A stretch of 64,000 nt of DNA from positions 1,240,001-1,304,000 of the forward strand of contig NZ_CP014161.1 in NCBI RefSeq assembly GCF_001543175.1, given 5' to 3'. Below the pieces are notes generated by a model. That model saw only the letters and a list, made by a program, of their open reading frames with translations. It did not search any database and had not been told where the DNA came from. The position numbers and the translations under genes are program-made. Every line of letters starts with the position of its first letter. The first letter of the stretch is position 1. The stretch is from Aerococcus urinae (GTDB lineage Bacteria > Bacillota > Bacilli > Lactobacillales > Aerococcaceae). This document shows positions 18,037 to 37,800 of the stretch, piece after piece.

Positions 18037-19323
18037 TCATTCTGACGAATTCCTATCCTCTTTGAGTAAGGATTTTATCATAGCTACCATGGCACTCACT
18101 TCATCTGTAGCAAAGATCTGTCCCCCATCAACTAAGTCTGGTCTGTGGACGGTGGATTCAAAGGCGACCACCGGACAGCCCCTTTGGAGGGCGCGGCTGA
18201 CAATATCGTCGACTTCGTCATAATAGTTGATGTCTAGGTAGATGTCAGCTTGGTTAAGTAGGTCTTCGATTAGGTCGTTGTGAGCAAAGGGATGGATGAA
18301 AATATTCTCTAGACTTTCAGCTAAGTCGATAAGACTAGGTGCCACTACAGTATAAGCAACAATATGGATGCAGAGGTCAGGAAGAGCTCGTGCTAAGTCT
18401 TCAACTTGTTCTATTTCGGCTGAGTGGGTTAAGATGAAAGCATGTTGGGAGAAGTCCCTCATACTGAAGTATCTGGCATAGTCTGTATCCCAGGCAGATT
18501 TTACATCATCGTCAAAATGTTCATAAAGGCTCTGGCCCCGATATAATTTATCAATATAAGCGTTTAAAGTTATATGAGGATCATAGCCAAATTTTTGCAA
18601 GTCGGAGATTTTTTTACTTAAATTCTTGATATTATCATTGAAATGTTTAACTAGATTTCGACTACTTGTCGACATAATTGAACTATCATGTTGCCGATAG
18701 GCATATAAATTCAAATCAATGGCAAAAATTTCCGAGGCGGCCATATACCAGCGATAGGTTGTCGCTGAATCTTCATACCAGACCCCTATGGGAAATAAAT
18801 TCTGGCGCACAATATCTGCTTTGACCAACTTACACCATGCCGTCGTGAAGGACAGGGGAATCACCCCATCTTCATCTTTTCTAATAGCATCATGACTATC
18901 ATAGGACCTTATCGTAGGCAACCCTGTCGTCATCATCCAGTAATGGCCAGCATCATTAAAGTATTTGCAGGCTCCGATGACGATATCTGCCTGCTTATTC
19001 TGAGCAATGCGGTGTAAGATTTCTAGTGTATTTTCAACAATTTTATCGTCTGAATCCAAGAAGAAAATATATTCTCCCTTAGCCTGGCTCGTTCCAAAAT
19101 TCCGTGCCGCAGACAGGCCTTGATTCTCCTGGTGAAACAGCTTAAAGCGTTCATCCCTTTGGCAATAGTTATCTGCAATAACGGGAGAAGCATCTGGAGA
19201 TCCATCGTTAACCATGATCACTTCAAAATCTTTAAAAGTTTGATTTCTCACTGACTCTAAGCATTCAATCAGGTATTTTTCAACTTTATAGATTGGAATG
19301 ATAATTGAAATTTTGGGATTCAT
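18037..19323 (-). CDS. GT2 glycosyltransferase with GtfB-type C-terminal module, adhesin locus
   Basis: A 428-residue cytosolic glycosyltransferase. Residues 1-230 are a GT-A/GT2 domain: ISIIIPIYKVEKYL at the start, VMVNDGSPD-like nucleotide-sugar site (VNDGSPD), and FLDSDDKI as the metal-binding DxD segment. From about residue 295 a second domain begins (AFILTHSAEIEQ...). It contains ADIYLDINY and aligns throughout with the C-termini of GtfB and Gtf3 encoded upstream. As the last gene of the run, 26 bases after the small membrane protein gene, it probably adds a further sugar to the glycosylated adhesin. The C-terminal module may bind the acceptor or the partner enzymes. AAAGGAAG precedes the ATG. 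Donor sugar unknown. Confidence 0.85.
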   Translation of the reverse strand: MNPKISIIIPIYKVEKYLIECLESVRNQTFKDFEVIMVNDGSPDASPVIADNYCQRDERFKLFHQENQGLSAARNFGTSQAKGEYIFFLDSDDKIVENTLEILHRIAQNKQADIVIGACKYFNDAGHYWMMTTGLPTIRSYDSHDAIRKDEDGVIPLSFTTAWCKLVKADIVRQNLFPIGVWYEDSATTYRWYMAASEIFAIDLNLYAYRQHDSSIMSTSSRNLVKHFNDNIKNLSKKISDLQKFGYDPHITLNAYIDKLYRGQSLYEHFDDDVKSAWDTDYARYFSMRDFSQHAFILTHSAEIEQVEDLARALPDLCIHIVAYTVVAPSLIDLAESLENIFIHPFAHNDLIEDLLNQADIYLDINYYDEVDDIVSRALQRGCPVVAFESTVHRPDLVDGGQIFATDEVSAMVAMIKSLLKEDRNSSE

Positions 19324-19349
19324 AGCTACTTCCTTTCATTACCTTTCAA

Positions 19350-19541
19350 TTAAAATATATTTAGTAGTCTTATAATCAAAGCTAAAAAAATAGAAATAAC
19401 CATTAGAAAAGCTATCAAATAAGGTAATTTATTTGTGCTAGTCTTTTCGTCTTCCTCTTTTTTTGATTCCTTTTCTTCTCGCTGATCTTTAATCATCTTT
19501 TTTATTTCATTATCAACGTAGTTTCCCTTATTATTCTTCAT
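19350..19541 (-). CDS. Small membrane protein, Asp4/Asp5-like candidate of the accessory Sec system
   Basis: A 63-residue protein: a very polar, K/E-rich N-terminal half (about 1-36) and one membrane helix, LPYLIAFLMVISIFLALII, near the C-terminus. It starts 27 bases after secA2 with a good TGAGGTGAG site. In Streptococcus gordonii the small proteins Asp4 and Asp5, encoded in the same kind of locus, are needed for export and resemble SecE/SecG in size and topology. The single-helix layout here fits a SecE-like partner of SecY2. The assignment rests on size, topology and position, not on a recognised sequence motif. Confidence 0.6.
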   Translation of the reverse strand: MKNNKGNYVDNEIKKMIKDQREEKESKKEEDEKTSTNKLPYLIAFLMVISIFLALIIRLLNIF

Positions 19542-19568
19542 AAGCTCACCTCAATACGGCTATCTTCT

Positions 19569-21935
19569 TTATGCAAATTGAATTATAGGTTGACCATTTT
19601 TATCAGCCACAACTCGACTCAATGATAAATAATAGACAATTTTTTGATAAATCCGATCCTTCATTTCATTATAAGACCATAGCGCTTCTTTTTGGTATTC
19701 GTAAATGGGGTTGCGCTGAGCTGAACTCCTGGTTACAACAACTTGCTTAAATTGGGTCAAATAGTCCACTTGCTCCACCCAAACTTCATCAATGGCTTTT
19801 AATATACACTTACGCTCAAAATCCTCAAAATACTCTCCATGGCCTAAATGTTCTTTTTTAGATTCTAAAATAGTGAAAAAAATATTCATTAAATAATCGA
19901 TGAGAGCTTTGTCTGACAAATGATCGATACTTCTAGGTTCATAATTATAAGTTAAATTATCAAAAATCCAGCGGTCAATCTGGGCCTTACGACTTTTATC
20001 TGGATCAAGGTTATCAACAAGGTTTTTCATGACTTTCTCTGCTAAGTGACCAAGGTTGACTTCCTCTAATCCTTCACCTTCTAACAATTGATCGCGGGTT
20101 TGATAAATCAGTTTTCTTTGAATACTCATATCTTCATCCATTTGTATGATCTGTTTTCTAGCACTTTCCCCACTAGCATCACTAGCTTCTTGAGCTTGAT
20201 TAAAGTATTTCTCATAGCGAAAATTAGATAACTGTTTAATATCATCAATCTCTTCATCAGGATCCGACTGATAACGAATATGCTCTGGTGCCCATTTTTG
20301 GATGAGTTCGTCTTCTAAGGACACAAAGAACTTACTCATTCCTGGGTCTCCCTGCCTTCCTGCACGGCCACGTAATTGTAAATCAATGCGTTCACTAACC
20401 ATACGTTCGGTTCCAATAACTGCTAAGCCACCTAAGTCAGCAACTCTCTGTCCTAACTTAATGTCTGTTCCGCGGCCAGCCATGGCAGTCGCAACTGTCA
20501 CAGCTCCATGTTGACCAGCCTCTTTAATCATTTCCGCCTCTTTAGCTTCATTATAGGCATTGAGCACGTTATGGGGGATACCATCATTCAGCAAAATCGT
20601 TGAATACAACATGGATAACTGAACAGATCCGGTCGCAATTAATAGGGGTTGACCAGTAGCGTGTTTTTCTTCGATGTATTGGATTGAAGCAGCCAGTTTT
20701 TCTGGAAAACTGCGGTAAATTTCATCCGGATAGTCTTTGCGAATGACGGGCTTATTGGTTGGAATCGAAATGACTTCCATATTATAAGTGTCAATAAATT
20801 CGTCCTCAGCCGGTTTTCCTGTTCCTGTCATTCCTGCCATCCGGTCAAAGAGTAAGAATAAATTTTGATAGGTAATCGAAGCCATAGACCGATTTTCATC
20901 AGTCAATTCAACATGTTCTTTGGCTTCGATAGCCTGGTGCTGTCCTGCCTGCAAGCGTGTTCCTTTTAGAACCCGACCGTCACGACTATCTAATAATTCC
21001 ACCTCACCATCACGAACCACATAGTCCTTCTCATTGGTGAATAATTCATGGGCCTTAAGGGCTAAACTCACATGGCGTACCAGCTCACGATTGGATTGGG
21101 CATAAAATTTATCTAAACGGAAATATCTTTCTGCATGTCCTATCCCCTCTTGGGTAAGCCAAACCGCATCCTTTTCAGCAGTCACTTCATAATCACGTCC
21201 TGCTTCAAGGCTTTCTACAAAGTCATTAGCTAGCTGATAGAAATTCGATTGAACTCTTGGAGAACCTGAAATCACTAAAGGACTAGTCGCACCATCAAGT
21301 AAAACTGCATCCACTTCATCAATAATGACATAATAAAAATTCCGTAAAAATTGATCTTCTTTATCAGCAGCTAAATTATCACCCAAATAATCGAAGCCTA
21401 GAGCAGAATGAGTCGTATAGACAATATCAGCTCCATAAATTTTCCTTTTATCTTCAGCGGTTAAATCGTCTGAATTTTCGGGGACTCCCATTGCAATAGA
21501 TAAGCCCATAAAGCGATAAAGGGGCCCCATGTCTTCGGCATCACGGCGGGATAAATAATCGTTGACTGTAACTAGAATTACTCCCTTACCAGTTAAAGCA
21601 TTGAGGTATAAGGGCATAGTTGCAGTCAATGTCTTACCTTCTCCGGTCTTCATTTCAGCGATATTTCCCTCATGGAGTACAATAGCTCCGATCACTTGGA
21701 CATCATAGGGATACATCCCTAAAACACGTTTCGCTGCTTCCCTTACTGCAGCATAGGCTTCGGGTAGGAGGTCGTCTAAAGACTCACCTGCTTGATATCG
21801 TTCTTTAAATTCATTAGTCTTCTCCTTGAGACTACCATCTGATAAGCGGGACATAGCTCCTGCATAAGAATTGACTTGGTCAAGAATACGATTCAGTCGC
21901 CTTAAACGTTTTTTATCTAAATCAATTTTAAGCAT
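19569..21935 (-). CDS. secA2: Accessory Sec translocase ATPase SecA2
   Basis: A 788-residue SecA paralogue that drives export of the glycosylated serine-rich adhesin through SecY2. It has the Walker A MKTGEGKTLTA near residue 100, VIIDEVDAVLLD (DEAD-like), ATAMAGRGTDIKLG and QLRGRAGRQGDPG (helicase motifs V and VI), plus the SecA scaffold. It ends at NGQPIIQFA, without the Cys-rich zinc tail of housekeeping SecA, as SecA2 proteins of this system do. AAGGAGGAT lies before the ATG, 10 bases after asp3. It is part of one operon-like run with secY2 and asp1-3. Confidence 0.95.
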   Translation of the reverse strand: MLKIDLDKKRLRRLNRILDQVNSYAGAMSRLSDGSLKEKTNEFKERYQAGESLDDLLPEAYAAVREAAKRVLGMYPYDVQVIGAIVLHEGNIAEMKTGEGKTLTATMPLYLNALTGKGVILVTVNDYLSRRDAEDMGPLYRFMGLSIAMGVPENSDDLTAEDKRKIYGADIVYTTHSALGFDYLGDNLAADKEDQFLRNFYYVIIDEVDAVLLDGATSPLVISGSPRVQSNFYQLANDFVESLEAGRDYEVTAEKDAVWLTQEGIGHAERYFRLDKFYAQSNRELVRHVSLALKAHELFTNEKDYVVRDGEVELLDSRDGRVLKGTRLQAGQHQAIEAKEHVELTDENRSMASITYQNLFLLFDRMAGMTGTGKPAEDEFIDTYNMEVISIPTNKPVIRKDYPDEIYRSFPEKLAASIQYIEEKHATGQPLLIATGSVQLSMLYSTILLNDGIPHNVLNAYNEAKEAEMIKEAGQHGAVTVATAMAGRGTDIKLGQRVADLGGLAVIGTERMVSERIDLQLRGRAGRQGDPGMSKFFVSLEDELIQKWAPEHIRYQSDPDEEIDDIKQLSNFRYEKYFNQAQEASDASGESARKQIIQMDEDMSIQRKLIYQTRDQLLEGEGLEEVNLGHLAEKVMKNLVDNLDPDKSRKAQIDRWIFDNLTYNYEPRSIDHLSDKALIDYLMNIFFTILESKKEHLGHGEYFEDFERKCILKAIDEVWVEQVDYLTQFKQVVVTRSSAQRNPIYEYQKEALWSYNEMKDRIYQKIVYYLSLSRVVADKNGQPIIQFA

Positions 21936-21945
21936 GGTATCCTCC

Positions 21946-22920
21946 TTAACTGATGGTTTGCCCGTCTAACTTCAAAAGATTATGGTGATAGTCCAATAAT
22001 TTCTGTCCGAAATAAAGGTCTTTAGATAGTCTATTTTCATAATAGCACTTTATATTTTCTGGCCTTTGATCCCTGTCTCCCTGCAGCCAATCAATAACTT
22101 TTTCGTCAAGGCGAGATTGCTGGGCAATTTTTACATATTGATAGGTCTCTAAATAATCATCTGTTAATAGGGCTTGGGAATTAAGATAGCGGTCAGCATA
22201 ATAAGAAGCTGCTAAATTAGAAATAGGACCATAGCCTATAAAATAAAAATTGCTCGCTTGACTAGACTGAACAAAGGTCTCTACGCCAGACATGGCTTCT
22301 TCTGATAAATAGAGCTGGGCGTTTAATAATTCACTAGCCAGCAAATTAGCCTGGTGATTAACTACCGGCAATTGCTGTAACTTATTCACTTCTTCTTGGA
22401 TACTCCCTATTCCTGGCTCAACAAAAATCAAATGCTGAAAGGATTTATCATTTTCAATCAACAATGTATCTTTAGCCATCACTTTATCTAGGATGAGTTC
22501 AGCTATTATCAAGCGTTTAAAAACGATAGAGCGGCAGCCTGCATTAACTAAAGATATAGTGTAGTGTCCATAATTATCTGGTACAGTAAAAAAATCCTCA
22601 CTCGTTCGAACAAAATCCTTTTGCATGGATTCTCCGTAATAATCAAAGAATTCAACCGTGAACATGAGGGAATTTTCGGGTTGAACCTGCCCAATAAATT
22701 TAAGAAAGTAAGATTTACTACTAGTTAAAAGTGGCAAATTAGGCGATGAAAAATAGAGTCCATAAGATTTCTCAGAAGACCATTGGTTAATAACTATTCC
22801 CGAGTGAACCATAGAGTTTTTAAAAGATACCTTATCCGGTGACAGCCACTCTATTTGAGAACCATGACTGTATATATCGTCATGCATCAAGCCCCAACGA
22901 ACAATATAGTAATCTTTCAC
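21946..22920 (-). CDS. asp3: Accessory Sec system protein Asp3
   Basis: A 324-residue cytosolic protein. Residues about 1-155 match the Asp3 type (YYIVRWGLMHDDIYSHGSQIEW...NSMVHSGIVINQW), a beta-sandwich resembling carbohydrate-binding modules. The C-terminal half is helical. In the streptococcal system Asp3 binds Asp1, Asp2 and SecA2 and is needed for adhesin export. The start is GTG at 22920, overlapping the asp2 stop (GTGA), with AAGGAG upstream. The C-terminal part is less familiar to me than the first half. Confidence 0.85.
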   Translation of the reverse strand: MKDYYIVRWGLMHDDIYSHGSQIEWLSPDKVSFKNSMVHSGIVINQWSSEKSYGLYFSSPNLPLLTSSKSYFLKFIGQVQPENSLMFTVEFFDYYGESMQKDFVRTSEDFFTVPDNYGHYTISLVNAGCRSIVFKRLIIAELILDKVMAKDTLLIENDKSFQHLIFVEPGIGSIQEEVNKLQQLPVVNHQANLLASELLNAQLYLSEEAMSGVETFVQSSQASNFYFIGYGPISNLAASYYADRYLNSQALLTDDYLETYQYVKIAQQSRLDEKVIDWLQGDRDQRPENIKCYYENRLSKDLYFGQKLLDYHHNLLKLDGQTIS

Positions 22921-24467
22921 TCTTCTATCTCCTTACTTTCAAAATCTTCCCAGAGAATTCGCTTGTATTGATTAATAAACCAATTTGCAACAGTAGGTGT
23001 ATTATCATTATGTCGTCCCATCACGGATTTACTAATAATTTTAATTGGCTTATCGCTCAAATTTTTCAATAATCCATAATATGCCTCATTATCATAATCT
23101 TCATTGAGCATGTAAGTCATTGCAAAGGTAGATTGACTATAATGAGTCTGTTTTAATCTAGGCATTAACATACTGTCTAAAATATCTAAATCAGTGTCCA
23201 AATCATCATTGTCACCAAATTTCAAGGTTAAATCCATTGATGTTTTAAATGAGTCATTAGGACGCCTTAAACGTTGATTTCTGGTAATATTTCCTAAATA
23301 GACAAGTGGCCGCGCCATAATTATGGCATAAGGGTCTAAAAAACTTCCATAGTACAAAGCACCAAAGGTTCCCATAGACATACCTGAAAGGATTAGTTGA
23401 TCCTTAGTAAAATTTAACTCATCTAATACTTCTATTATCTTAGCAACAATGGTAGCCTCGAATTGGGCACTTCCTCGATAGAAGGCCCCGCCCTCTAAAC
23501 GTAAATCATTGATCAATATAAAGGGATGCTTTAAGTTCTTCATCATTGGAAAGCCTTCAAAACCTTCTGCTGTACGATAACCAGAAAAATAAACATTTAA
23601 AGGAGGTTTTAAATTCCCAGGATTATAATAAAAAGCAAACTCTTCACGATTATTATCAGCTATAATTTGTCCACCTGCTAAATAGTCTCCCCACTTTCTC
23701 CGGGAATGTCTAACATGTAAGGGACCAATTCTTAGTTGACCAGAGCCTTTGACACAAAGGGAAAAGCTCGCATAACAATTCTCAGGCGGATCTAATAAGA
23801 TTCTCTTTTTAATTGCTTCATTATCGTAGGAAATGCGCTCAACCACCTGATTAGAGCTTCCCCTACGAATAAAGGTAATCGTCAATTTTAGATCAACAGT
23901 CTCGTCTTTTATAAACTCTAACCAGATATCGAGATAGCGATCTATATTAGAGATAATAAGATGTCGCCAATATAACAAAGGTGCCATTTGTTCTGTTTGT
24001 TTAATTTGGAAAAGAATATAATTGTTTCCTAGGTATTGATAGTGGCCAGGGAAATTGGCTTGAATAGAAACATCTTGAACGCCACGTCTTTCGCCATAAT
24101 TACCGTCAAAGAAAACTTTTGCTAATTCAACAACCGTCTCAGCAATATTTTCCACTTCAATAAACTGGGCCTTTTTCATGGAAAATAAAAGTTTGAAGTC
24201 TGGAGCTGAGTAATAAGCTTCAAATTGTTGATCAATTACTACGGCATAAGCTTCCATAAAGGGAAGTAGCTTATCTATGAGTAATTCATTAATAGGAGCA
24301 GTCAGTAATACAAGGGAATAAGGTCTTTGAGGCAAAGTATCTTCTTCTAAGGATTTTTCATAAAAATCAGCAAGTTCTGTATTCAGGACAAAAGTCCAGT
24401 CGACTTCATTCTTAAATGCTACCCCCTGTGACCAGTCACTATAGCCAATTTGTAAAACTCTAGTCAT
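22917..24467 (-). CDS. asp2: Accessory Sec system protein Asp2 (acetyltransferase/hydrolase fold)
   Basis: A 516-residue cytosolic protein. The C-terminal half is an alpha/beta-hydrolase fold with ILSGMSMGTFGALYYG carrying the nucleophilic Ser, and a His in VMGRHNDN near the end. The N-terminal half is beta-rich. In Streptococcus gordonii Asp2 O-acetylates GlcNAc on the adhesin and is also needed for transport, so the same double role is likely here. It overlaps asp1 by 8 bases and asp3 by 4, so the three are probably translated together. GGAGAGGACAGCT precedes the ATG. Confidence 0.9.
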   Translation of the reverse strand: MTRVLQIGYSDWSQGVAFKNEVDWTFVLNTELADFYEKSLEEDTLPQRPYSLVLLTAPINELLIDKLLPFMEAYAVVIDQQFEAYYSAPDFKLLFSMKKAQFIEVENIAETVVELAKVFFDGNYGERRGVQDVSIQANFPGHYQYLGNNYILFQIKQTEQMAPLLYWRHLIISNIDRYLDIWLEFIKDETVDLKLTITFIRRGSSNQVVERISYDNEAIKKRILLDPPENCYASFSLCVKGSGQLRIGPLHVRHSRRKWGDYLAGGQIIADNNREEFAFYYNPGNLKPPLNVYFSGYRTAEGFEGFPMMKNLKHPFILINDLRLEGGAFYRGSAQFEATIVAKIIEVLDELNFTKDQLILSGMSMGTFGALYYGSFLDPYAIIMARPLVYLGNITRNQRLRRPNDSFKTSMDLTLKFGDNDDLDTDLDILDSMLMPRLKQTHYSQSTFAMTYMLNEDYDNEAYYGLLKNLSDKPIKIISKSVMGRHNDNTPTVANWFINQYKRILWEDFESKEIEE

Positions 24468-26010
24468 AGCTGTCCTCTCCTAACAAGGCTTTCCATTGAC
24501 TCACTAATTCCCCACTATGATATTGATTAATCTTTTCTACAGAATAAACCAAGGCCTCATTCCAATGTTTAAGCCCCTTAAAGTAATAATCAATCCCTTG
24601 AGCTAATTGATCTATGTTCTTAGCAATTAAACCATTCTTTAAATGCTCTACGTAAGCAGATTCCACTCGGTTGATCTGAGGAATTCCTGCACTAATTCCG
24701 GCAATTTGTCCGTAAACCCAGGGATGGGATGTCCAATCAATCATTAAGCGCACATACTTCAAGCTTTGGATAAAGTCCCGCTCGCTATGGTTAATTTGCA
24801 CCTGACAGACTGGCTCTTCTTCCGCGTCAGGCATCTTATCCGCAAACTCAACAACTTCTCCATAGTTAGGATCAAAGTATTTATTTAAACGATCTGATAA
24901 GTTTTCTATCGCTTCAATTTTAGCTTGATCAATCTGAAAGGCGCCTAAAACTAAGCGAATACGATTGTCTTTTTTCATCTTATCCTTAATAACTTCCATA
25001 ACTTCTTTAATTTCTTTAAGCCCCAGATGGCTTACTTCAAAGTAAATAATTAATTCCTTAATCCGTTGACTCAATCCTAACTGTAAACGAGTATCAAAGG
25101 GAGATAGTCGATAAATTGGTGTCATCAGAGAATAAGCTTTCTCATATTCGTTAACTTTATCCTTCAATTGGTCAGTATCCGTAATCAAAAGCTTAGCCCT
25201 ATCCAGCGACTCCAGGAAAGTGTTTGACTGAGAGTCAAACGACCGCTGACTATAAAGAGAATAGACTAAATTAATATTCTTTCTTTCAACAAGTCGATTA
25301 AACAATTCATTATGCTTATCGTTATAAGCAACAACAAGAACATCCTTTTCACCTATATGTTTAGCCAAATATTTGCTTGTGACTTCCTCTACTAGGTCAA
25401 CGAGTGATTGGTAAGTCGGATGAGAAAATTGTTTGCTTCCGGGCTGATCTTGGTTCACTTCTATTTGACCACTATCTAAAAATTCACGGATAACCCACTG
25501 ACCAGACAAAGTTAAATAATCCTGGTGACTGCTTTGATCATCATTATGATAAATAATACTCGATAAGAAACCTCGATCATCAAAAAGGTAGCGTCTTGAT
25601 ACTTGCTTATCTTGGTAATAATCAATAAAAGCAATATACCCATTTGATTGGTAATGAACATCGGCAAAATGTTGGTCTTGAACAAATACCATCATTAAAA
25701 AGGGGGTAGGCACGAATTCAGCAAACTGCGGAAAGGATAGGTCTTCTAGGGTAATCGGTCTTACCTTATTTAAATGAATTCCTTGAATAGCATCAAAAAC
25801 CGACCAATAATGATTCATCTCGACATTTTGATCATGCAAGTTCAACCGTAACATTGGCGCATAATCAAGCATTAATAGCTTATTAGCCTCCTCAGCCCGC
25901 TGAAATAAACGCAGTTGATTAACTGTATCATCAAAATATAAGTCCATATAGGAAGGTTCACCAGATCCCCAGTGATTATTTGTATACCAGGATGGAATAA
26001 AGTAATACAT
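24460..26010 (-). CDS. asp1: Accessory Sec system protein Asp1
   Basis: A 516-residue protein opening with MYYFIPSWYTNNHWGSGE, the characteristic Asp1 start. The rest has a GT-B-like layout with a C-terminal region (RLMIDWTSHPWVYGQIAGISAGIPQINR...YVEHLKNG) like the nucleotide half of glycosyltransferases but probably without activity, as reported for streptococcal Asp1. It forms the core of the Asp1-2-3 complex that hands the adhesin to SecA2. AAAGGGAAAACA precedes the ATG, 12 bases after secY2. Confidence 0.92.
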   Translation of the reverse strand: MYYFIPSWYTNNHWGSGEPSYMDLYFDDTVNQLRLFQRAEEANKLLMLDYAPMLRLNLHDQNVEMNHYWSVFDAIQGIHLNKVRPITLEDLSFPQFAEFVPTPFLMMVFVQDQHFADVHYQSNGYIAFIDYYQDKQVSRRYLFDDRGFLSSIIYHNDDQSSHQDYLTLSGQWVIREFLDSGQIEVNQDQPGSKQFSHPTYQSLVDLVEEVTSKYLAKHIGEKDVLVVAYNDKHNELFNRLVERKNINLVYSLYSQRSFDSQSNTFLESLDRAKLLITDTDQLKDKVNEYEKAYSLMTPIYRLSPFDTRLQLGLSQRIKELIIYFEVSHLGLKEIKEVMEVIKDKMKKDNRIRLVLGAFQIDQAKIEAIENLSDRLNKYFDPNYGEVVEFADKMPDAEEEPVCQVQINHSERDFIQSLKYVRLMIDWTSHPWVYGQIAGISAGIPQINRVESAYVEHLKNGLIAKNIDQLAQGIDYYFKGLKHWNEALVYSVEKINQYHSGELVSQWKALLGEDSYD

Positions 26011-26022
26011 TGTTTTCCCTTT

Positions 26023-27297
26023 CTAATGTTTATTAAATAGCGGTCGATATTGATTTCTTATTCTCAAGGCCCGTATTTCATCAATGATATTTAAAAATAG
26101 AGCGACCAAAATAACTATACTTCCCGGCAAATTGAGCCATTGGGAATATTCTGGAAATATAACCCCTAAAGACATGGGAAAACCCACTACAGCTGTCATA
26201 TAAATAGCTCCTATAATGGCCATATTTAATATTTTTCCTCTTAAAAATTTTTCAGTTGGCTTACCGGGATTGATGCCATCGATATAGTCCCCAGATTTTT
26301 GTAAGTTTTCACTTAATTGTTCGGGATCAACATTAACAAAAGCAAACCCAAGGCTTAATGCAATAATTAGTAGGACATACAAGAAAGCGCCCAAGGGCTG
26401 AGTCATACTCAACTGGTATTGTAAATTCCTCAATAAGTCAAGATTAGGAAAGAATATCAGTATTAAGTCAATGATATATCGCGGTAAGAGGGCTAAAGTC
26501 ATGGCATACATGATAGCCATCCCCCCACTCGGATTTAATTTAATCGGCAAGTAAGATTTTTCAGTAAAATTATTATTTATCATTACTCGGTTTATCGGAA
26601 TCCTTAATTCAGCCCGATCCATTACAATAGTAGTAAATGCTGTCATTAAAGCAAAAACCGAAACACTAATTAATAATACTTGTTCAATAAATGACGCTCG
26701 ATAAATTAAGAAAATCCTCAATGCAGCAAAATTACTTGGCATCCTTAGAAGCATATTAGCTAAAATAATGATCGTTTGGCCACCAATCCCAGCTTCTTGG
26801 TTACGTCCACCTAGCCAAATGGTAAAGAAAGTCCCCGCAACTAAAGCTAAAATAATTGTCCCATAAGCCATAAAGTCACTAGACATTATAGTCCCTTGTA
26901 AGGGAGTCAGCGGATAAGTTACCGCTAAAGTAATCGCTTGAACTAAGGCAAGGATTAAGGTCAGCAGGTTGCGATAATAATTATCCAGTCTAGGAGGGAC
27001 TTTCAGTGCTTTATACCATTTAGACATGGAGATAAAACGCCAAATGATCATAGTCGACATATATGGCCCTAGCCCTAAACTTAATAAAGAAGCTTGTTCA
27101 AAGCTACCACCAGTTGCACTTAGGGCTAATGAAAGAAAGTCATTTCCAGAAGGACTTTGCTGAATAGCCTGCCAATCAACTAAGGGTAAAGGAATGGAAC
27201 GTCCAATGATATAGACAATCAGAATTATGGCAGTAAATAATAACTTTTTATAAAGAAGTGGTAGACGAAATCTGTTTTCTTTATTTTGGATAGCCAC
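26023..27297 (-). CDS. secY2: Accessory Sec translocase channel SecY2
   Basis: A 424-residue, ten-helix SecY paralogue forming the membrane channel for the adhesin. SecY features include FSLATGGSFEQAS-like plug region (LSATGGSFEQASLLSLGLGPYMSTMIIW), GIGGQTIIILANM and the NPGKPTEKFLRGKI loop. It is shorter in the cytosolic loops than housekeeping SecY. The start is GTG at 27297 with AAAGG 12 bases upstream. A 98-base gap with a hairpin separates it from gtf3. It is the first of the export genes secY2-asp1-asp2-asp3-secA2. Confidence 0.93.
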   Translation of the reverse strand: MAIQNKENRFRLPLLYKKLLFTAIILIVYIIGRSIPLPLVDWQAIQQSPSGNDFLSLALSATGGSFEQASLLSLGLGPYMSTMIIWRFISMSKWYKALKVPPRLDNYYRNLLTLILALVQAITLAVTYPLTPLQGTIMSSDFMAYGTIILALVAGTFFTIWLGGRNQEAGIGGQTIIILANMLLRMPSNFAALRIFLIYRASFIEQVLLISVSVFALMTAFTTIVMDRAELRIPINRVMINNNFTEKSYLPIKLNPSGGMAIMYAMTLALLPRYIIDLILIFFPNLDLLRNLQYQLSMTQPLGAFLYVLLIIALSLGFAFVNVDPEQLSENLQKSGDYIDGINPGKPTEKFLRGKILNMAIIGAIYMTAVVGFPMSLGVIFPEYSQWLNLPGSIVILVALFLNIIDEIRALRIRNQYRPLFNKH

Positions 27298-27335
27298 TAA
27301 TTAAACAACCTTTCATACCATGTAAATAGTAAATT

Positions 27336-27365
27336 AGAGGCAAGGAATTGATTGCCTTTGCCTCT
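27336..27365 (-). other. Hairpin between gtf3 and secY2
   Basis: AGAGGCAA pairs with TTGCCTCT across 14 bases. There is no T tract, so it may be an RNA processing or stability element separating glycosylation genes from export genes rather than a terminator. Confidence 0.4.
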
Positions 27366-27395
27366 ATTGTGACATAAGAATAACTTGTATTTATT

Positions 27396-28850
27396 CTATT
27401 TGTTTACTCGATCCTCTTGCAATTTTATCTGACCAATTAGATCTTGATAATTTTCTTGTCCAAAGATATTATTAGGATTCAATAAATCTATCTGATGACA
27501 ATAACCTTCAAATGAATATATCCTTAAACCAAGATTGCTAGCTTTTGTCACTATATCTTCCACTTCTACCCCGTAATTGATATCTAGATAAATATTAGCC
27601 TTTAATAAAAGAGTATTAATCTGTTCTCTTCCTGCCGCTGGATAGAGAGACACATTAGGATATTTTTCTAAGTCCAATAAGCGATCTGACATTTGCGTTT
27701 GAGCCGCAATATGGAATTGATAATTGGGTAAAGCTTGAATAATTTCATCAATATGCAATAAGTAATCCTGAGCCGTCAAAATAAAAATATTATGGTCTTG
27801 TCGCATTAACGGACAATGACTGAGGTCCCCTTCAAAAGCTGAAAGTCCCCGACTAAAGATTTTAAAAACAGTTGCCGTTAAGAGACGTTGGGTAAAGTAG
27901 CCTTTGGTGATCAATTGACGAAAGTTAGCAACACTATTGATTAGTTCCTGATAAGTACTTTCTGACATGTTTTCTATAACCTCATTAGCTTCTTCTAATG
28001 ACTTGACGACAAAGCCTAGGCCATTGTCTTCAATAATTTTTTTATTTGATAAGCTTTCAGGAACAAATACAGGAATGCCTGCAGCTAAATACGTACTCAA
28101 TTTATGGGTAATACACATTTGGAAATAGTCTTGAATATAATCTTGATCAGTCCAGACCAGCCCAAAACCGCCCTTAGATAAGTTTGTTAAGAGTTCATAA
28201 TCAGGTAACCAGCCCTTAATAGTGACCGATTGCGGTAAGTCCAAGTCTCTAGCATGATTTGAATAAACATCGATAGGAGTCTCAAGTGACCAGTGCTTGA
28301 TAAAATCAAATTTGTTGATATCCCCCGCAAAATGAATCCTCTTTTGAAAGGAAATATCCCTAGGTTGGAAATCAGTTGGATGGTCCCACATAGCTTGGAC
28401 TAAGATCTTATTGACCGTTAGCCCTTCTAAGTAAAGGCGTTGATACATTTCTTGAGAAGGAACAATTACCAATTCAGCTTCATTGTAAATTTCAATAAGA
28501 GAACTCATCAAATAATAATTTTGAGGGAACATGATTGGTGGTATATCATGTATAAACACTGCTAGATGTGCTTTGAAAGTATACTTAATTTTATCAATTA
28601 AGGCCCTTTCAAAACGACTATCGTTCCATGTTGGTAATTGAACAACCACTAGGTCACCTTGACTAACTCCAGCTAAGATGCCATCCAAGCGTTTACTTAA
28701 TTCCTGATCAGAATCGTAAGAAGACTCATAGGCATAAATAGCTAATTCATTAAAATCTAATTTTTGAGCAATTGACATTGTCATCTCTTGAGAAATTAAT
28801 GCTGTACTTGCAGCAGAGTGACCATGCAAATTGGTAATATGCTTTCTCAT
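27396..28850 (-). CDS. gtf3: Gtf3/Nss-type glycosyltransferase with extra C-terminal module
   Basis: A 484-residue cytosolic enzyme. Residues 1-340 match the Gtf3 (Nss) family of serine-rich adhesin loci: MRKHITNLHGHSAASTALISQ, RLDGILAGVSQGDLVVVQLPTWND, FIHDIPPIMFPQNYYLM. In S. parasanguinis Gtf3 adds glucose to GlcNAc already placed on Fap1 by GtfA/GtfB. Gtf3 proteins usually stop near residue 330-340. Here an additional module of about 125 residues (from about 354, with ANIYLDINY) is fused, homologous to the C-terminus of the neighbouring GtfB. AGGAAGG lies upstream of the ATG, 28 bases after gtfB. Donor specificity is inferred from the family only. Confidence 0.85.
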   Translation of the reverse strand: MRKHITNLHGHSAASTALISQEMTMSIAQKLDFNELAIYAYESSYDSDQELSKRLDGILAGVSQGDLVVVQLPTWNDSRFERALIDKIKYTFKAHLAVFIHDIPPIMFPQNYYLMSSLIEIYNEAELVIVPSQEMYQRLYLEGLTVNKILVQAMWDHPTDFQPRDISFQKRIHFAGDINKFDFIKHWSLETPIDVYSNHARDLDLPQSVTIKGWLPDYELLTNLSKGGFGLVWTDQDYIQDYFQMCITHKLSTYLAAGIPVFVPESLSNKKIIEDNGLGFVVKSLEEANEVIENMSESTYQELINSVANFRQLITKGYFTQRLLTATVFKIFSRGLSAFEGDLSHCPLMRQDHNIFILTAQDYLLHIDEIIQALPNYQFHIAAQTQMSDRLLDLEKYPNVSLYPAAGREQINTLLLKANIYLDINYGVEVEDIVTKASNLGLRIYSFEGYCHQIDLLNPNNIFGQENYQDLIGQIKLQEDRVNK

Positions 28851-28878
28851 CGATTAACCTACCTTCCTAGCAACTTCT

Positions 28879-30201
28879 TTATCCATTAAATATAGCTTGG
28901 TATACTTCTTTACCAACATGATTGGATTGGACAATTTGGGAGGAAATGGCTTGCTGCCATTGCTTTTGATTATTTCCTAAAATTTTGATTGTATTTGACA
29001 AGGAAGCAGCTTCTTCAATTGAAAAAATAAATTCATCGGCGATATAGGCCTTCTTGTGCATGGTTTCTTCAAATGCCATGTTTAAGCAATGAAACTCAAA
29101 AGCTGCGCGAACTGCATCAACAATTTCATTGCCATGATTAATATCTAAGTAAAAACAAGCCTGTTTGAGTAGTTTTTGAATCAAATCCATAGAAATATTA
29201 GGATAGAGTTGTACATTAGGATATTGCCCATAATCCATTAATCTCTCTGACATTTCCGTTACGGCACCGATCCTAAATTGAAAATCAGGCAAATTGTCTA
29301 ACAAAAGATCTAATTGTTCGATCTGATCAGAATTAGTTAATATTAAAATTTCTTTAGCAAATTCTTTGCCCTCAAGTATAGGATAAATATAGCCTAAGGG
29401 TTTAATCGCCTCACTTGGTAGTTGATTTAATTCACATAATTCCAGTGCACGTTGGTAAGTGGCCTGGTCAGGAATAATGACCTGATTACACCGTGGTGTC
29501 TGCCCATTCAGAATGAGCTGCATATTACCGGGAATCTCTTCTGACAAAGTTTCATGCCAAATTAAAATATCCTGACCTTGTCGTGGAAGAGTGTGCGAAA
29601 TTAAGAAAGGAGTTGCCAATGAATTTATAATTATTCGCTCCAAAGGTAGACCAGATCTCAATAAGTAAAATAGGAAAAACTCCCTTTGATTATGAAAAAT
29701 CTTCTTTTTCCCTTGCCAATCCAAGATAACGTTACCAGTCACAAAGTTATCAACAATAACATCATGACCCCTAGTGTCAAAATAGATCTTCATGTGCGTA
29801 TCCTGGCCATGTCGAATGATTTGAGCATAGCGACGCCCAAACTGATTATAACAATCCGTCCACATGATCTGCTCTTTATCATTCAACCAATCCACTGTCT
29901 TAACTAGACGCTGTCCACTATTAGTAAAGTAATGGATATTGGCCCGCTTATGGTGGTAATCCCAGACGCTGGCTGAAGTATTTGTTGCTTTTATCTCCCA
30001 ATTTAAGGGAACTGGCACTTCATTAAAATATAGCGGACTCCCTTCCTCTTCCCCCATAAAAAAGCGATAAGGAGAAGTCGTTCCTTGGGGTAAAAATCCA
30101 TCCTCATTTAAAATCACAGTGGGAAAATTAAATCCAGCACGGAGCATGGATTGGTGAAAATCCCGCGTGGCTTCATCATAATTATCAAATAATTGAATCA
30201 T
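28879..30201 (-). CDS. gtfB: Adhesin glycosylation chaperone GtfB
   Basis: A 440-residue cytosolic partner of GtfA. The two form an O-GlcNAc transferase in which GtfB binds the serine-rich substrate and does not itself transfer sugar. It starts MIQLFDNYDEATRDFHQSMLRAGFN and contains the GtfB core YHHKRANIHYF...DWLNDKEQIMW. The start is set at 30201, giving an ATGA overlap with gtfA and GGAGGAGG eight bases upstream; the frame is open to 30231. The C-terminal region (about 284-405, with CFYLDINHGNE) is shared with Gtf3 and the GT2 enzyme of this locus. Confidence 0.92.
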   Translation of the reverse strand: MIQLFDNYDEATRDFHQSMLRAGFNFPTVILNEDGFLPQGTTSPYRFFMGEEEGSPLYFNEVPVPLNWEIKATNTSASVWDYHHKRANIHYFTNSGQRLVKTVDWLNDKEQIMWTDCYNQFGRRYAQIIRHGQDTHMKIYFDTRGHDVIVDNFVTGNVILDWQGKKKIFHNQREFFLFYLLRSGLPLERIIINSLATPFLISHTLPRQGQDILIWHETLSEEIPGNMQLILNGQTPRCNQVIIPDQATYQRALELCELNQLPSEAIKPLGYIYPILEGKEFAKEILILTNSDQIEQLDLLLDNLPDFQFRIGAVTEMSERLMDYGQYPNVQLYPNISMDLIQKLLKQACFYLDINHGNEIVDAVRAAFEFHCLNMAFEETMHKKAYIADEFIFSIEEAASLSNTIKILGNNQKQWQQAISSQIVQSNHVGKEVYQAIFNG

Positions 30202-31848: not shown

Positions 31849-34800
31849 CTATGCATCATTATCTTTCTTTCTCTTGAAACCTAAAGCACTTAGGCCTGCA
31901 AGGATTGCAGCTAATCCTGCGCCGAGAACAGAAGTATTTTGGGCTCCTGTTTGAGGCAAGAAACCTGATTGCTTAATTTCAACTTGAGAATCTTGATCAC
32001 TTATCAAAGCACTTTGTGAGCTTGATTCTGATGTAGATTCAGAAGCTTCGATAGTTTCAGAAGAGCTAATGCTTGCAGATCCATGTTCTTGAGCAGGTTC
32101 CAAATCAGAGACACTTGCTGATTCTGAAGCTAATTGACTTTCGCTAATACTTTCAGAACTTGAAGAGTCAGACTCACTAGAGTCGATTGGCGCTGCTGCA
32201 TCTTCAGATTCAGAGGCAGACACACTTGCTGATTCTGAAGCAGATACGCTTACGGACTCGGATGCCGAAGCACTGCTGCTTGCAGAGTTAGAGGCTGAAG
32301 CACTGGAGCTTGCGGACTCAGACGCTGAGGCGCTGGAGCTTGCAGACTCGGACGCTGAAGCGCTAGAGCTTGCGGACTCAGACGCCGAGGCGCTAGAGCT
32401 TGCGGATGCCGATGCTGAGGCGCTCGAACTTGCAGACTCAGATGCGGATGCACTTGAACTTGATGAGTCTGACGCTGAAGCGCTGGAGCTTGCGGACTCG
32501 GACGCTGAAGCGCTGGAGCTTGCAGATTCTGATGCCGATGCACTGCTGCTTGCGGAGTCGGATGCGGAAGCACTCGAACTTGCGGACTCGGACGCTGAAG
32601 CGCTAGAGCTTGCGGACTCAGACGCTGAAGCGCTGGAGCTTGCAGATTCTGATGCCAATGCACTCGAACTTGCAGATTCAGACGCTGAGGCACTCGAACT
32701 TGCGGACTCGGACGCTAAAGCGCTCGAACTTGAGGACTCGGACGCTAAAGCGCTCGAACTTGAGGATTCAGACGCGGACGCACTGGAGCTTGCCGATTCG
32801 AATACCGAGGCACTGGAGCTTGCAGACTCAGATGCGGATGCACTTGAACTTGATGAGTCTGAAGCTGAAGCGCTAGAGCTTGCGGACGCAGACGCTGAAG
32901 CGCTGGAGCTTGCAGAGTCTGATGCCGATGCACTGCTGCTTGCGGACGCAGATGCAGAGGCGCTGGAGCTTGCAGACTCGGATGCTGAAGCACTGGAGCT
33001 TGCGGACGCAGACGCTGAAGCGCTGGAGCTTGCAGAGTCGGACGCTGAAGCACTGCTGCTTGCAGATTCCGATGCCGAGGCACTGGAGCTTGCGGACTCG
33101 GATGCTGAAGCACTCGAACTTGCGGAGTCTGATGTTGAAGCGCTGGAGCTTGCAGATTCGGACGCTGAGGCACTCGAACTTGCGGATTCCGATGCGGACC
33201 CACTGCTGCTTGAGGACTCAGACGCTGAAGCGCTCGAACTTGCAGATTCCGATGCGGACGCACTGGAACTTGCAGAGGCTGAGGCCGATGCACTCGAACT
33301 TGCGGACTCAGACGCTGAAGCGCTGGAGCTTGCAGAGTCAGAGGCCGAAGCACTGGAGCTTGCGGATTCCGATGCCGACGCACTCGAACTTGCAGAGTCG
33401 GACGCTGAAGCACTGGAGCTTGCAGAGGCTGAGGCCGATGCGCTCGAACTTGCAGAGTCGGACGCTGAAGCACTGGAGCTTGCAGAGGCTGAGGCCGATG
33501 CGCTCGAACTTGCAGAGTCAGACGCTGAAGCACTGGAGCTTGCGGATTCCGATGCCGACGCACTCGAACTTGCAGAGGCTGAGGCCGATGCACTGGAGCT
33601 TGCAGAGGCTGAGGCCGATGCGCTCGAACTTGCAGACTCAGACGCTGAAGCACTGGAGCTTGCGGATTCCGATGCCGACGCACTCGAACTTGCAGAGGCT
33701 GACGCTGAGGCACTCGAACTTGCAGAGTCAGAGGCCGAAGCACTGGAGCTTGCAGAGTCGGACGCTGAAGCGCTCGAACTTGCAGATTCCGATGCGGACG
33801 CACTGGAACTTGCAGAGGCTGAGGCCGATGCACTCGAACTTGCAGACTCAGACGCTGAAGCGCTGGAGCTTGCAGAGTCAGAGGCCGAAGCACTGGAGCT
33901 TGCAGAGTCGGACGCTGAAGCGCTGGAGCTTGCAGAGTCAGAGGCCGAAGCACTGGAGCTTGCAGAGTCGGACGCTGAAGCGCTCGAACTTGCAGAGTCG
34001 GACGCTGAAGCACTGGAGCTTGCAGAGGCTGAGGCCGATGCGCTCGAACTTGCAGACTCAGACGCTGAAGCACTGGAGCTTGCGGATTCCGATGCCGACG
34101 CACTCGAACTTGCAGAGGCTGACGCTGAGGCACTCGAACTTGCAGAGTCAGAGGCCGAAGCACTGGAGCTTGCAGAGGCTGAGGCCGATGCGCTCGAACT
34201 TGCAGACTCAGACGCTGAAGCACTGGAGCTTGCGGATTCCGATGCCGACGCACTCGAACTTGCAGAGGCTGAGGCTGAGGCACTCGAACTTGCAGAGTCA
34301 GAGGCCGAAGCACTGGAGCTTGCAGAGGCTGAGGCCGATGCGCTCGAACTTGCAGAGTCGGACGCTGAAGCGCTAGAGCTTGCGGACTCAGACGCTGAAG
34401 CGCTGGAGCTTGCAGATTCTGATGCCGATGCACTCGAACTTGCAGAGTCGGACGCTAAAGCGCTCGAACTTGAGGATTCAGACGCGGACCCACTGCTGCT
34501 TGCAGACTCGGATGCTGAAGCACTGGAGCTTGCGGACGCAGACGCTGAAGCGCTGGAGCTTGCAGAGTCGGACGCTGAAGCACTGCTGCTTGCAGATTCC
34601 GATGCCGAGGCACTGGAGCTTGCGGACTCAGAGGCTGAAGCACTCGAACTTGATGACTCGGATGCTGAGGCGCTGGAGCTTGCGGATTCCGATGCCGAAG
34701 CACTGGAGCTTGAGGACTCAGATGCGGACGCACTCGAACTTGCGGATTCCGATGCCGATGCACTCGAACTTGCGGACGCAGACGCTGAAGCACTAGAGCT

Positions 34801-37800
34801 TGATGATTCGGACGCCGATGCGCTCGAACTTGAGGATTCCGATGCCGAAGCACTGGAGCTTGCAGACTCAGATGCCGAAGCACTCGAACTTGCGGACTCA
34901 GACGCGGACGCGCTCGAACTTGCGGACGCAGACGCCGATGCGCTCGAACTTGAGGACTCTGAGGCTGAAGCGCTCGAACTTGCAGACTCAGATGCCGATG
35001 CGCTGGAGCTTGCGGACGCAGACGCTGAAGCACTAGAGCTTGATGATTCGGACGCCGATGCGCTCGAACTTGAGGATTCCGATGCCGAAGCACTGGAGCT
35101 TGAAGACTCAGATGCGGATGCACTTGAACTTGCAGATTCAGATGCGGACGCGCTGGAGCTTGAAGACTCGGACGCTGAAGCGCTGGAGCTTGAAGACTCA
35201 GACGCTGAAGCGCTTGAGCTTGCTGATTCGGACGCTGAGGCGCTCGAACTTGCTGACTCAGACGCGGACGCACTGGAGCTTGAAGACTCGGACGCTGAAG
35301 CGCTCGAACTTGCTGACTCAGATGCGGATGCACTCGAACTTGCGGACTCTGATGCAGAGGCACTGGAGCTTGCGGACTCTGACGCTGAAGCACTTGAACT
35401 TGCGGAGTCGGACGCTGAGGCGCTGGAGCTTGCGGATTCAGACGCGGACGCACTTGAACTTGCGGATTCGGATGCTGAAGCGCTAGAGCTTGCGGACTCT
35501 GATGCGGACGCACTTGAACTTGCGGACTCAGACGCTGAAGCGCTAGAGCTTGCGGATTCAGACGCGGACGCACTTGAACTTGCGGATTCGGATGCTGAAG
35601 CGCTGGAGCTTGCAGACTCTGACGCGGAAGCGCTCGAACTTGCGGATTCTGACGCCAACGCGCTTGAGCTTGCGGACTCTGATGCAGACGCACTCGAACT
35701 TGCGGACTCTGATGCAGACGCACTCGAACTTGCGGACTCTGATGCAGACGCACTTGATTTTGCAGATTCCGATTGACTAGCACTTAATGAGCTAGATGCT
35801 GACTGACTGGCACTTTCAGATTGTGATTCTATCATAGCAGATTCACTTTGAGAAGCGCTGACAGACTCAGACTTCACTGACGATTCGGAAGCTGATTCAC
35901 TCTGCGAAATGCTATTGTTGTCTTTCGTCACATTAACAGTAACATTAGTATCATCCTTGGTTCCATCTGGATAATTCACAACAACTGGAATCGTTAGAGT
36001 GCCATCTTCAGGCCGTCCTTTACCCGGAGTGAAAGTTACTTCACCGGTATTAGGATCAATTGTCGCTGCGTCTCCCGTATTCGGATCTGTCCAGTTCGTT
36101 GTTCCATCACCAAAAGTAAAGGTCGTACCAGCTGGTGGTGTCACATTATCTTGGTGGGTCTTCGGACCTGTTGGATCGTTTGGATCAGTTGGGAGGTCAC
36201 TACTGAAGCTTGGACTTACAGTCGTTGGTGTTGGATTTTCACCTGATTCTGCTTGTCCAGTTGGGTAAGTAGGTTCATAGCTATCGCTGTTTGGATTATC
36301 TACAATCACTTGTACCGTCACTGGATCTGTTGTCCCATCTGGATAAGTAACAGTTACAGGTACTTCATAACTGCCTGGGTTCTTGCCATCTGGTAAAGCA
36401 TCTGGATTGTCAATCGAAACGGTTGGCGTTTGACCTGGATGAGCTGGATTCTCTTGGTAACCAGGTACAGTTACGGCCTTCTTGATCTCATCTTCAGTGG
36501 TTGCTTGGCCATAATCTTTCTCAACCGGCGTTACAGTTGGATCATAGAGTTCATTCTCAGGCTTACGAGTAATATCAACATAAACATTAGCGGTGTCTGT
36601 TGTGTTATCCGCATAAGTAATGGTGACTGGAATTTGAACTTTTTGGCCAGCCTTGCCTTCAGTGAAGCTTGCAGGGACAGTGATTGAGCCGTCAGCATTA
36701 ACGGTGACACCCGCTACACTAGTCGTGAATTGGCTAACTTCTGGTTGGACCACTTGACCGTTCTTGATGAAAGTCGGTGCAGCGACGGTGTCAGCTTGAC
36801 CTTCTTCAACAGAAATGTTGTCATAGCCTGGCTCGAATTCTTCAGCCATGGTAACTTTTTCCCATTGGGCATAGACGGTAGTTGAGTTTTGGAAGGCAGT
36901 TTCAGGTGTAATGTAGTCACCTGAACCGTCCTGGGCGGTATTCCATCCTAAGAAACGGTAACCTTCCAAGGTCGGATCCTTGGCCATGTTGCCTTCGAGA
37001 CCGTTATTGGTGTAGCCCACTTCATTGGAGAAGTCTTCGTTCCGAGGAACATCAGAGTTCTCGATAGCTGTCGTGTTACCTGCTGCATCATTCGTTTCTA
37101 CTGGCGCAGCGTAAGTCATCACGCGACGAGCGGAGGTCCCGTTAGGATTATTGAGGTCGTAAGTCACCTGGATAAGAACGCGGGCGATAACCGCATCCGA
37201 ACCCACTGCTGTTTGGATGGCTTCTTCATCTTCAGAAAGTGCTTTTTCCTCAACACTAGCGGTTGTATAATCAAAAGCTCTTGCAATGATTGGCGAATCC
37301 TTGACTAGGCGATCTGTATCCGGAATGACATATTCGAACTTGTACAAACCTTGGCCTGGTTCTGGATAGGTCTTGTCACCTTCAACGGTGTAAGTCGCAC
37401 CTGGTTCTGCTGTGCTGCCTGATAGTGTCCGGACATAGCGAGTCTGACCAGAGTTAGCATCAATATAGGAAATTTCAACTAATTGGTTAGGGACATAGGT
37501 ATAACCGGTAATCACCTTATCAAAGTCATACATATCCTTAACTACTGGCATATATTGAGTACGATCAAGAAGTGCAGACGACTGAACTTCTGTACCGATT
37601 AGCATCCTTGGAGCGAAACTTTTCTCAGCTTGCCCTTCACCAAAGGCAGCGACTTTTTTGCCACCAATATAAATTTCACCAGAGTTATTAACTAGATTTC
37701 CTAATTGACCTGTAAATAACTTAATTTCTGTGCCTGGATTTACTTTTGTATCATAGGGCATAGTATAGGTATAAGTTTTCCCATCACTTGAAACTTCAAA

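Follow-up and report, generated by a model that had tools for sequence, protein, structure and literature searches.

The serine-rich repeat adhesin locus of Aerococcus urinae was found to encode three proteins, namely GtfB, Gtf3 and a family 2 glycosyltransferase (GT2), which end in one homologous module, and this module has about an even chance of being a non-catalytic docking domain that holds later-acting enzymes on the serine-rich chain bearing N-acetylglucosamine (GlcNAc). The stretch analyzed, hereafter the window, comprises 64,000 nucleotides of contig NZ_CP014161.1 (positions 1,240,001 to 1,304,000). Its minus strand contains an accessory Sec cluster with genes for the serine-rich repeat adhesin, gtfA, gtfB, gtf3, secY2, asp1, asp2, asp3, secA2 and the GT2 enzyme, so that in the window annotation both the gtf3 and the GT2 gene lie inside the cluster. 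The three carriers and their modules are as follows.

28879..30201 (minus strand): gtfB, non-catalytic partner of GtfA, 440 aa; TIGR02919 512.5 bits, cut-off 338.3
28987..29352 (minus strand): GtfB module, copy 1, the C-terminal, putatively donor-side lobe, residues 284-405; full-length TIGR02919 match, PDB 5e9t/5e9u
29137-29151 (minus strand): YLDIN motif of the GtfB module
27396..28850 (minus strand): gtf3 (GtfC/Nss type), 484 aa, carrying an added module; solved Gtf3 structures match residues 1-331
27426..27791 (minus strand): Gtf3 C-terminal module, copy 2, residues 354-475; TIGR02919 282-408, leave-one-out profile, 5e9u_B
27576-27590 (minus strand): YLDIN motif of the Gtf3 module
18037..19323 (minus strand): GT2 glycosyltransferase gene with added module, 428 aa; PF00535 E 7.8e-39, residues 6-139
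18070..18441 (minus strand): GT2 C-terminal module, copy 3, residues 295-418; TIGR02919 279-414, leave-one-out profile, 5e9u_B and 5gvv
18226-18240 (minus strand): YLDIN motif of the GT2 module

The coordinates that an earlier sequence-only reading had given for the three genes proved correct on re-check, and its proposal of a single shared module was confirmed by two kinds of search. At a threshold of E <= 0.001, the GtfB model TIGR02919 matched three proteins in the whole genome of 1,974,262 bases, with hmmscan in agreement: GtfB (model positions 1-437), Gtf3 (282-408, E 6.4e-36) and GT2 (279-414, E 2.2e-27). The curated cut-off was passed by GtfB, while Gtf3 (122 bits) and GT2 (94.6 bits) remained below it; one of the 14 control genomes, Lactococcus lactis, gave a match, also below the cut-off. 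In a check set in advance, profiles built from two copies recovered the third (GtfB 1.1e-29, Gtf3 5e-31, GT2 3e-27), and found no further match among the 180 six-frame open reading frames (ORFs) of at least 60 aa searched. The trimmed segments aligned over 125 columns, 31 of them invariant, and the pairwise scores of 176-198 were far above the maxima of 49-50 reached in 500 shuffles (z 30-34). Together with the model matches and the leave-one-out profiles, these scores ruled out chance similarity, and the shared segment is real. Recent copying was rejected because the Gtf3 and GT2 segments are just 39 and 36% identical, respectively, to that of GtfB, in line with the old divergence proposed from the letters. 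Neither TIGR02919 nor the window module profiles matched gtfA. For the module region of the three window proteins, no Pfam model reached its cut-off; Glyco_trans_1_4 came nearest, scoring 23.6 bits (6.8e-5) in the GT2 copy where 27 are required.

Against the PDB, the three-copy profile retrieved the GtfB/Gtf2 structures 5e9t and 5e9u (1.8e-36) and Streptococcus pneumoniae GlyE, 5gvv (1.6e-21, profile 14-140 on chain 276-403), with the next match at 0.32. The GT2 copy alone found 5e9u_B (1.9e-15) and 5gvv (7.4e-12), and the Gtf3 protein matched the same two chains at 2.8e-16 and 7.3e-9. Because of this homology to solved GtfB and GlyE, the three copies are predicted to have one common fold. In a single comparison, a profile of 81 modules (positions 2-143) aligned weakly to the donor lobe of GtfA (311-469; E 0.0012, probability 19%). 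In the register taken from this weak alignment, both glutamates of the E-X7-E motif were found in none of the 116 non-redundant modules (0 of 38 from GtfB and 0 of 78 others); a loose E-X7-E pattern was present in 27 of the 33 GtfA proteins. Since it aligns to the donor lobe and has lost E-X7-E, the module looks like a non-catalytic donor-side lobe of the GT-B fold, albeit from weak matches, which disfavors a catalytic second transferase and also replaces the dedicated docking fold implied by the earlier reading. Five positions are kept in both the other and the GtfB modules: T4 (97 and 100%, respectively), P20 (96 and 97%), N45 (100 and 92%), D72 (97 and 100%) and N74 (91 and 92%). Judging by the sequence pattern, the conserved T, D and N probably stand at strand ends on the ligand-holding side of GT-B lobes.

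The partner enzymes were counted in the window and 122 further loci (46 from searches, 36 named contigs and 40 regions chosen from matches), a non-random sample in which several genomes were left out. The module, M, was carried by 225 proteins, 190 of them different: GtfB N-terminal part plus module, 59; GT8-M, 51; acetyltransferase-M, 24; GT8-M-GTD, 13; GT8-M-GT8-M-GTD, 11; GT2+GT8-M, 8; M-acetyltransferase, 7; module alone, 4; GT8-M-M-GTD, 4; Gtf3-M, 3; Gtf3-M-GTD, 3; GT2-M, 2; and M-GTD, 1. These labels come from BLAST clusters, the GT2+GT8 set being defined by segment length with a Pfam check on one member; the three Gtf3-M proteins include that of the window itself and one truncated at the end of its locus, and 17 of the 190 proteins are shorter than 290 aa or likewise truncated. 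Representatives were identified with Pfam (ten) and NCBIfam (nine), yielding PF01501, PF00535, PF08759, PF00132 and TIGR03728. Thus, the module is common to GT2, GT8, Gtf3, GT-D and hexapeptide-repeat acetyltransferase enzymes, the last in both domain orders. With GT-A for GT2 and GT8, GT-B for Gtf3, GT-D and the hexapeptide-repeat acetyltransferase fold, the partners span four unrelated catalytic folds, for which reason the module should handle something that the carriers share, most simply the acceptor. Examples of a hexapeptide acetyltransferase with a GtfB-type module are listed below by our locus numbers (L).

L056:5290-6381 (S. sanguinis)
L063:3843-4718
L087:15321-16196
L090:14962-15834
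L091:17009-17884
L106:3014-3880

In L063, L087, L090 and L091 these genes sit among accessory Sec or gtf3 genes; none such was labelled in the stretches retrieved around the genes of L056 and L106. That the module can precede or follow the acetyltransferase domain would fit a structural add-on, a lobe that makes the catalytic domain more stable or soluble, or helps to form its active site, with no acceptor contact of its own. So would its being non-obligatory and the assignment of the GtfB acceptor contact to a region outside the lobe (PMC6973325, PMC6291802). Intramolecular packing is, however, hard to square with four unrelated catalytic folds, a few polar positions are strongly conserved, and we consider such a role quite unlikely.

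The distribution of the module was surveyed in 395 genomes of the order, belonging to 80 genera, at a match threshold of E 1e-5. It was present in 71 genomes from 15 genera, with 226 matches in total and a maximum of 10 per genome; 49 of the 71 had at least two and 22 a single one. In a phylum-wide sample it was found in 2 of 348 genomes, both from the order of the window. SecY2 above the family cut-off was detected in 60 of the 71 module genomes vs 4 of the 324 genomes without the module, and in 64 of the 71 when seven SecY matches of 223-247 bits were counted as SecY2-like. The module is, therefore, closely associated with accessory Sec genomes. Several side observations concern its occurrence elsewhere (G numbers denote our genomes). 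In G074, the GT8-module genes L085:3681-4868 and L086:3076-4278 lie amid unrelated genes, and the secY2 and gtfB of that genome are more than 200 kb away. In L107, L108, L109 and L095, a gtfA-gtfB pair with a diverged GtfB (406-432 aa) has a GT8-module gene nearby, and no secY2 or secA2 was labelled in the stretches retrieved around them; the layout recalls S. salivarius GtfE/GtfF outside the secA2/Y2 locus (PMC6973325). G007 and G017, of the same genus as the window, retain gtf3 remnants with internal stops and gave no GtfB or module match, which suggests that the accessory Sec glycosylation locus has been lost in some relatives.

Several copies per genome, together with two-module proteins such as GT8-M-M-GTD and GT8-M-GT8-M-GTD and the reported oligomers of GtfA/GtfB and Gtf3 (PMC12809243), could also point to an enzyme-to-enzyme scaffold, in which modules bind each other or GtfA/GtfB to give an ordered multienzyme assembly. 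Against it stand the assignment of the GtfA-GtfB contact to DUF1975, a region missing from the added copies (PMC6973325, PMC6291802), the 22 genomes with a single module match, and locus L087, where 9 of the 13 ORFs labelled as modifying enzymes lack the module. We rate the scaffold as unlikely, and the L087 count also speaks against the ordered glycosylation assembly put forward in the sequence-only reading.

The fusion to Gtf3 was followed further. Residues 1-331 of the window Gtf3 match the solved Gtf3 chains 4w6q (1.3e-93) and 3qkw (1.4e-92), and in the alignment with 3qkw, read by hand, D101, K246 and L320 are conserved, with K in place of R179. With the residue roles and the GT113 name taken from PMC12809243, the gene is assigned to Gtf3/GtfC (GT113), its catalytic and donor residue positions being kept except for R179. 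The module is not the normal C-terminal lobe of Gtf3: the match to the solved chains, which have 332-354 residues and no module, stops at residue 331-332, and the module and Gtf3 profiles shared only 13 aligned columns. In a scan of the 395 genomes with the window Gtf3, the match ran into the module in the window, in G047, which belongs to a different genus of the same family (53% identity, query 1-475), and in the streptococcal-group genomes G370, G128 and G245 (to query residue 436-447); none of the other Gtf3-domain matches listed extended past query residue 356, those in G008 (335) and G018 (332) among them.

In a tree of 28 Gtf3 domains the five fused ones fell into two supported clades (100/98 and 100/100). 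A single origin was rejected on this tree (p-AU 4e-7, with long branches among the unfused rows) and was borderline on the module tree (p-AU 0.058, a reduced 42-row quick tree), module trees being poorly resolved with 118 columns. The Gtf3-domain tree thus indicates at least two separate gains of the module by Gtf3. A 565-aa Gtf3 of Liquorilactobacillus sicerae (L051:6666-8360) was counted as unfused in the Gtf3-domain tree: no module was found in it, and its different C-terminal tail resembles, by eye, a diverged GT-D domain. The gtf3 gene lies 9 bp upstream of a GT8-M-M-GTD gene in L091, L092 and L093, and 86 bp upstream of a GT2-M gene in G008 and Aerococcus sp. HMSC062A02 (loci L084 and L050). 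Because gtf3 adjoins module genes in this way, and because in the 116-row module tree the Gtf3 module from streptococci clusters with the second of the two modules in one GT8-M-M-GTD protein (99/61), deletion between neighboring genes is the likely route of fusion. The window and G047 modules may have separate origins, since the G047 copy stands on a long branch (1.37) among GtfB modules in the 116-row tree; holding the two as one clade was unrejected (p-AU 0.53). The same gene order, grouping and long branch would also fit a case in which an in-frame deletion from gtf3 into the downstream transferase-module gene had left a functionless module on Gtf3 as a neutral by-product. We consider this improbable, as the window copy retains all five conserved positions (T, P, N, D and N) and the fusion has persisted in three streptococcal genomes as well as in two genera of the window's family.

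Docking on the acceptor remains our preferred reading. The module would be derived from the donor-side lobe of GtfB, or share an ancestor with it. GtfA/GtfB would first add GlcNAc to the serine-rich chain, and the module on Gtf3, GT2 and other enzymes would then hold each of them on the GlcNAc-modified chain, giving the later steps a high local acceptor concentration. Enzymes with added copies are those that should work once the first GlcNAc is in place, with the serine-rich repeat adhesin as their presumed common acceptor. GtfB itself also recognizes GlcNAc-bearing substrate. It has been described as the acceptor-binding subunit (PMC12809243). The unrelated folds of the partner enzymes, the missing E-X7-E, the association with SecY2, the polar positions kept in GtfB and other copies alike, and the at least two gains by Gtf3 speak for docking, and we infer that the module binds the acceptor through a feature that includes GlcNAc.

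Several findings weigh against it. Module-free Gtf3 is the rule and works, and the same-genus genomes G008 and G018 have Gtf3 without the module. To the module-free enzymes of L087 must be added the 7 of 71 module genomes with no SecY match above 223 bits, and the module enzymes located away from an accessory Sec locus in L085 and L086 (G074) and in L106 (G168). Finally, DUF1975, in the N-terminal part of GtfB, is credited with both the GtfA-GtfB contact and the acceptor contact (PMC6973325, PMC6291802), and since the added copies lack it, the lobe alone may not bind the acceptor. Of the shared docking unit proposed earlier, docking on the chain is thus kept as the best reading, and docking on GtfA is disfavored by the absence of DUF1975.

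The shared-domain idea is not new, contrary to the earlier view that the fusion pattern was undescribed, because the module matches the add-on domain of GlyE, already solved in S. pneumoniae (5gvv, 5gvw). Residues 276-403 of the 406 in GlyE are homologous, and the module likewise follows a transferase domain, presumably in a similar kind of pathway; the difference is that GlyE is a GT8 enzyme, and the window copies are on Gtf3, GT2 and GtfB. Jiang et al. (2017, J Biol Chem 292:6213) reportedly proposed, as a speculation, that the add-on domain of GlyA, GlyD and GlyE forwards the peptide acceptor between enzymes; this is the role proposed here, and the scaffold discussed above comes close to it. 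The TIGR03728 (SP_1767) family, which we take to be GlyD, is matched by GT8-M-GT8-M-GTD and GT8-M-M-GTD representatives, with the same module between catalytic domains; it differs in having several catalytic domains per chain, and some streptococci have a Gtf3-M-GTD version. With respect to GtfB/Gtf2, the module corresponds to the C-terminal third, and the added copies come without the N-terminal part that includes the region named DUF1975 (PMC6973325, PMC6291802). The GT4 donor lobe (Glycos_transf_1/Glyco_trans_1_4, as in GtfA) is related by the weak full-length profile alignment and the sub-threshold match on the GT2 copy, but its E-X7-E is absent from every module in the aligned register. 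L. reuteri genes described as N-terminal GT4 plus C-terminal DUF1792 (PMC6291802) may, by description only, resemble Gtf3-M-GTD. A fusion of the module to Gtf3 or to an acetyltransferase appeared in no title or abstract opening among the papers listed, the form in which most papers were judged, and as far as these searches show, the fusions to Gtf3 and to hexapeptide-type acetyltransferases are new.

The remaining genes of the window cluster are the following; the 440-aa reading of gtfB overlaps gtfA by 4 bases.

19569..21935 (minus strand): secA2; TIGR03714
21946..22920 (minus strand): asp3; TIGR03711
22917..24467 (minus strand): asp2; TIGR03712
24460..26010 (minus strand): asp1; TIGR03713
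26023..27297 (minus strand): secY2; TIGR02920 329 bits
30198..31712 (minus strand): gtfA, catalytic partner, E-X7-E kept; TIGR02918 688 bits
31849..40707 (minus strand): serine-rich repeat adhesin, 2952 aa if the start in the ORF list is used; translation read by eye

Inside the adhesin gene, at 32250-35783 of the window, long ORFs occur on both strands; they do not look like genes but like a by-product of the regular serine-rich repeats.

A wider question is how a set of cytosolic transferases, together with an acetyltransferase that competes for the same GlcNAc position, is coordinated on one long repeat protein. In S. gordonii, O-acetylation and glucosylation compete for C6 of GlcNAc, the acetyltransferase there being Asp2 and not a hexapeptide enzyme (PMC7948813). 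One small module on GT2, GT8, Gtf3, GT-D and acetyltransferases, homologous to part of the acceptor-binding GtfB, would let this question be addressed by measuring binding directly, and it provides a sequence marker for enzymes of the pathway, unlinked ones included. A broader and rather doubtful extension is that a single glycan-reading module from the GtfB lobe serves both sugar- and acetyl-adding enzymes, which would compete or alternate on the same GlcNAc-marked stretches by the same contact. If that were true, the make-up of the adhesin coat of a strain would be set by the module-bearing enzymes that it carries.

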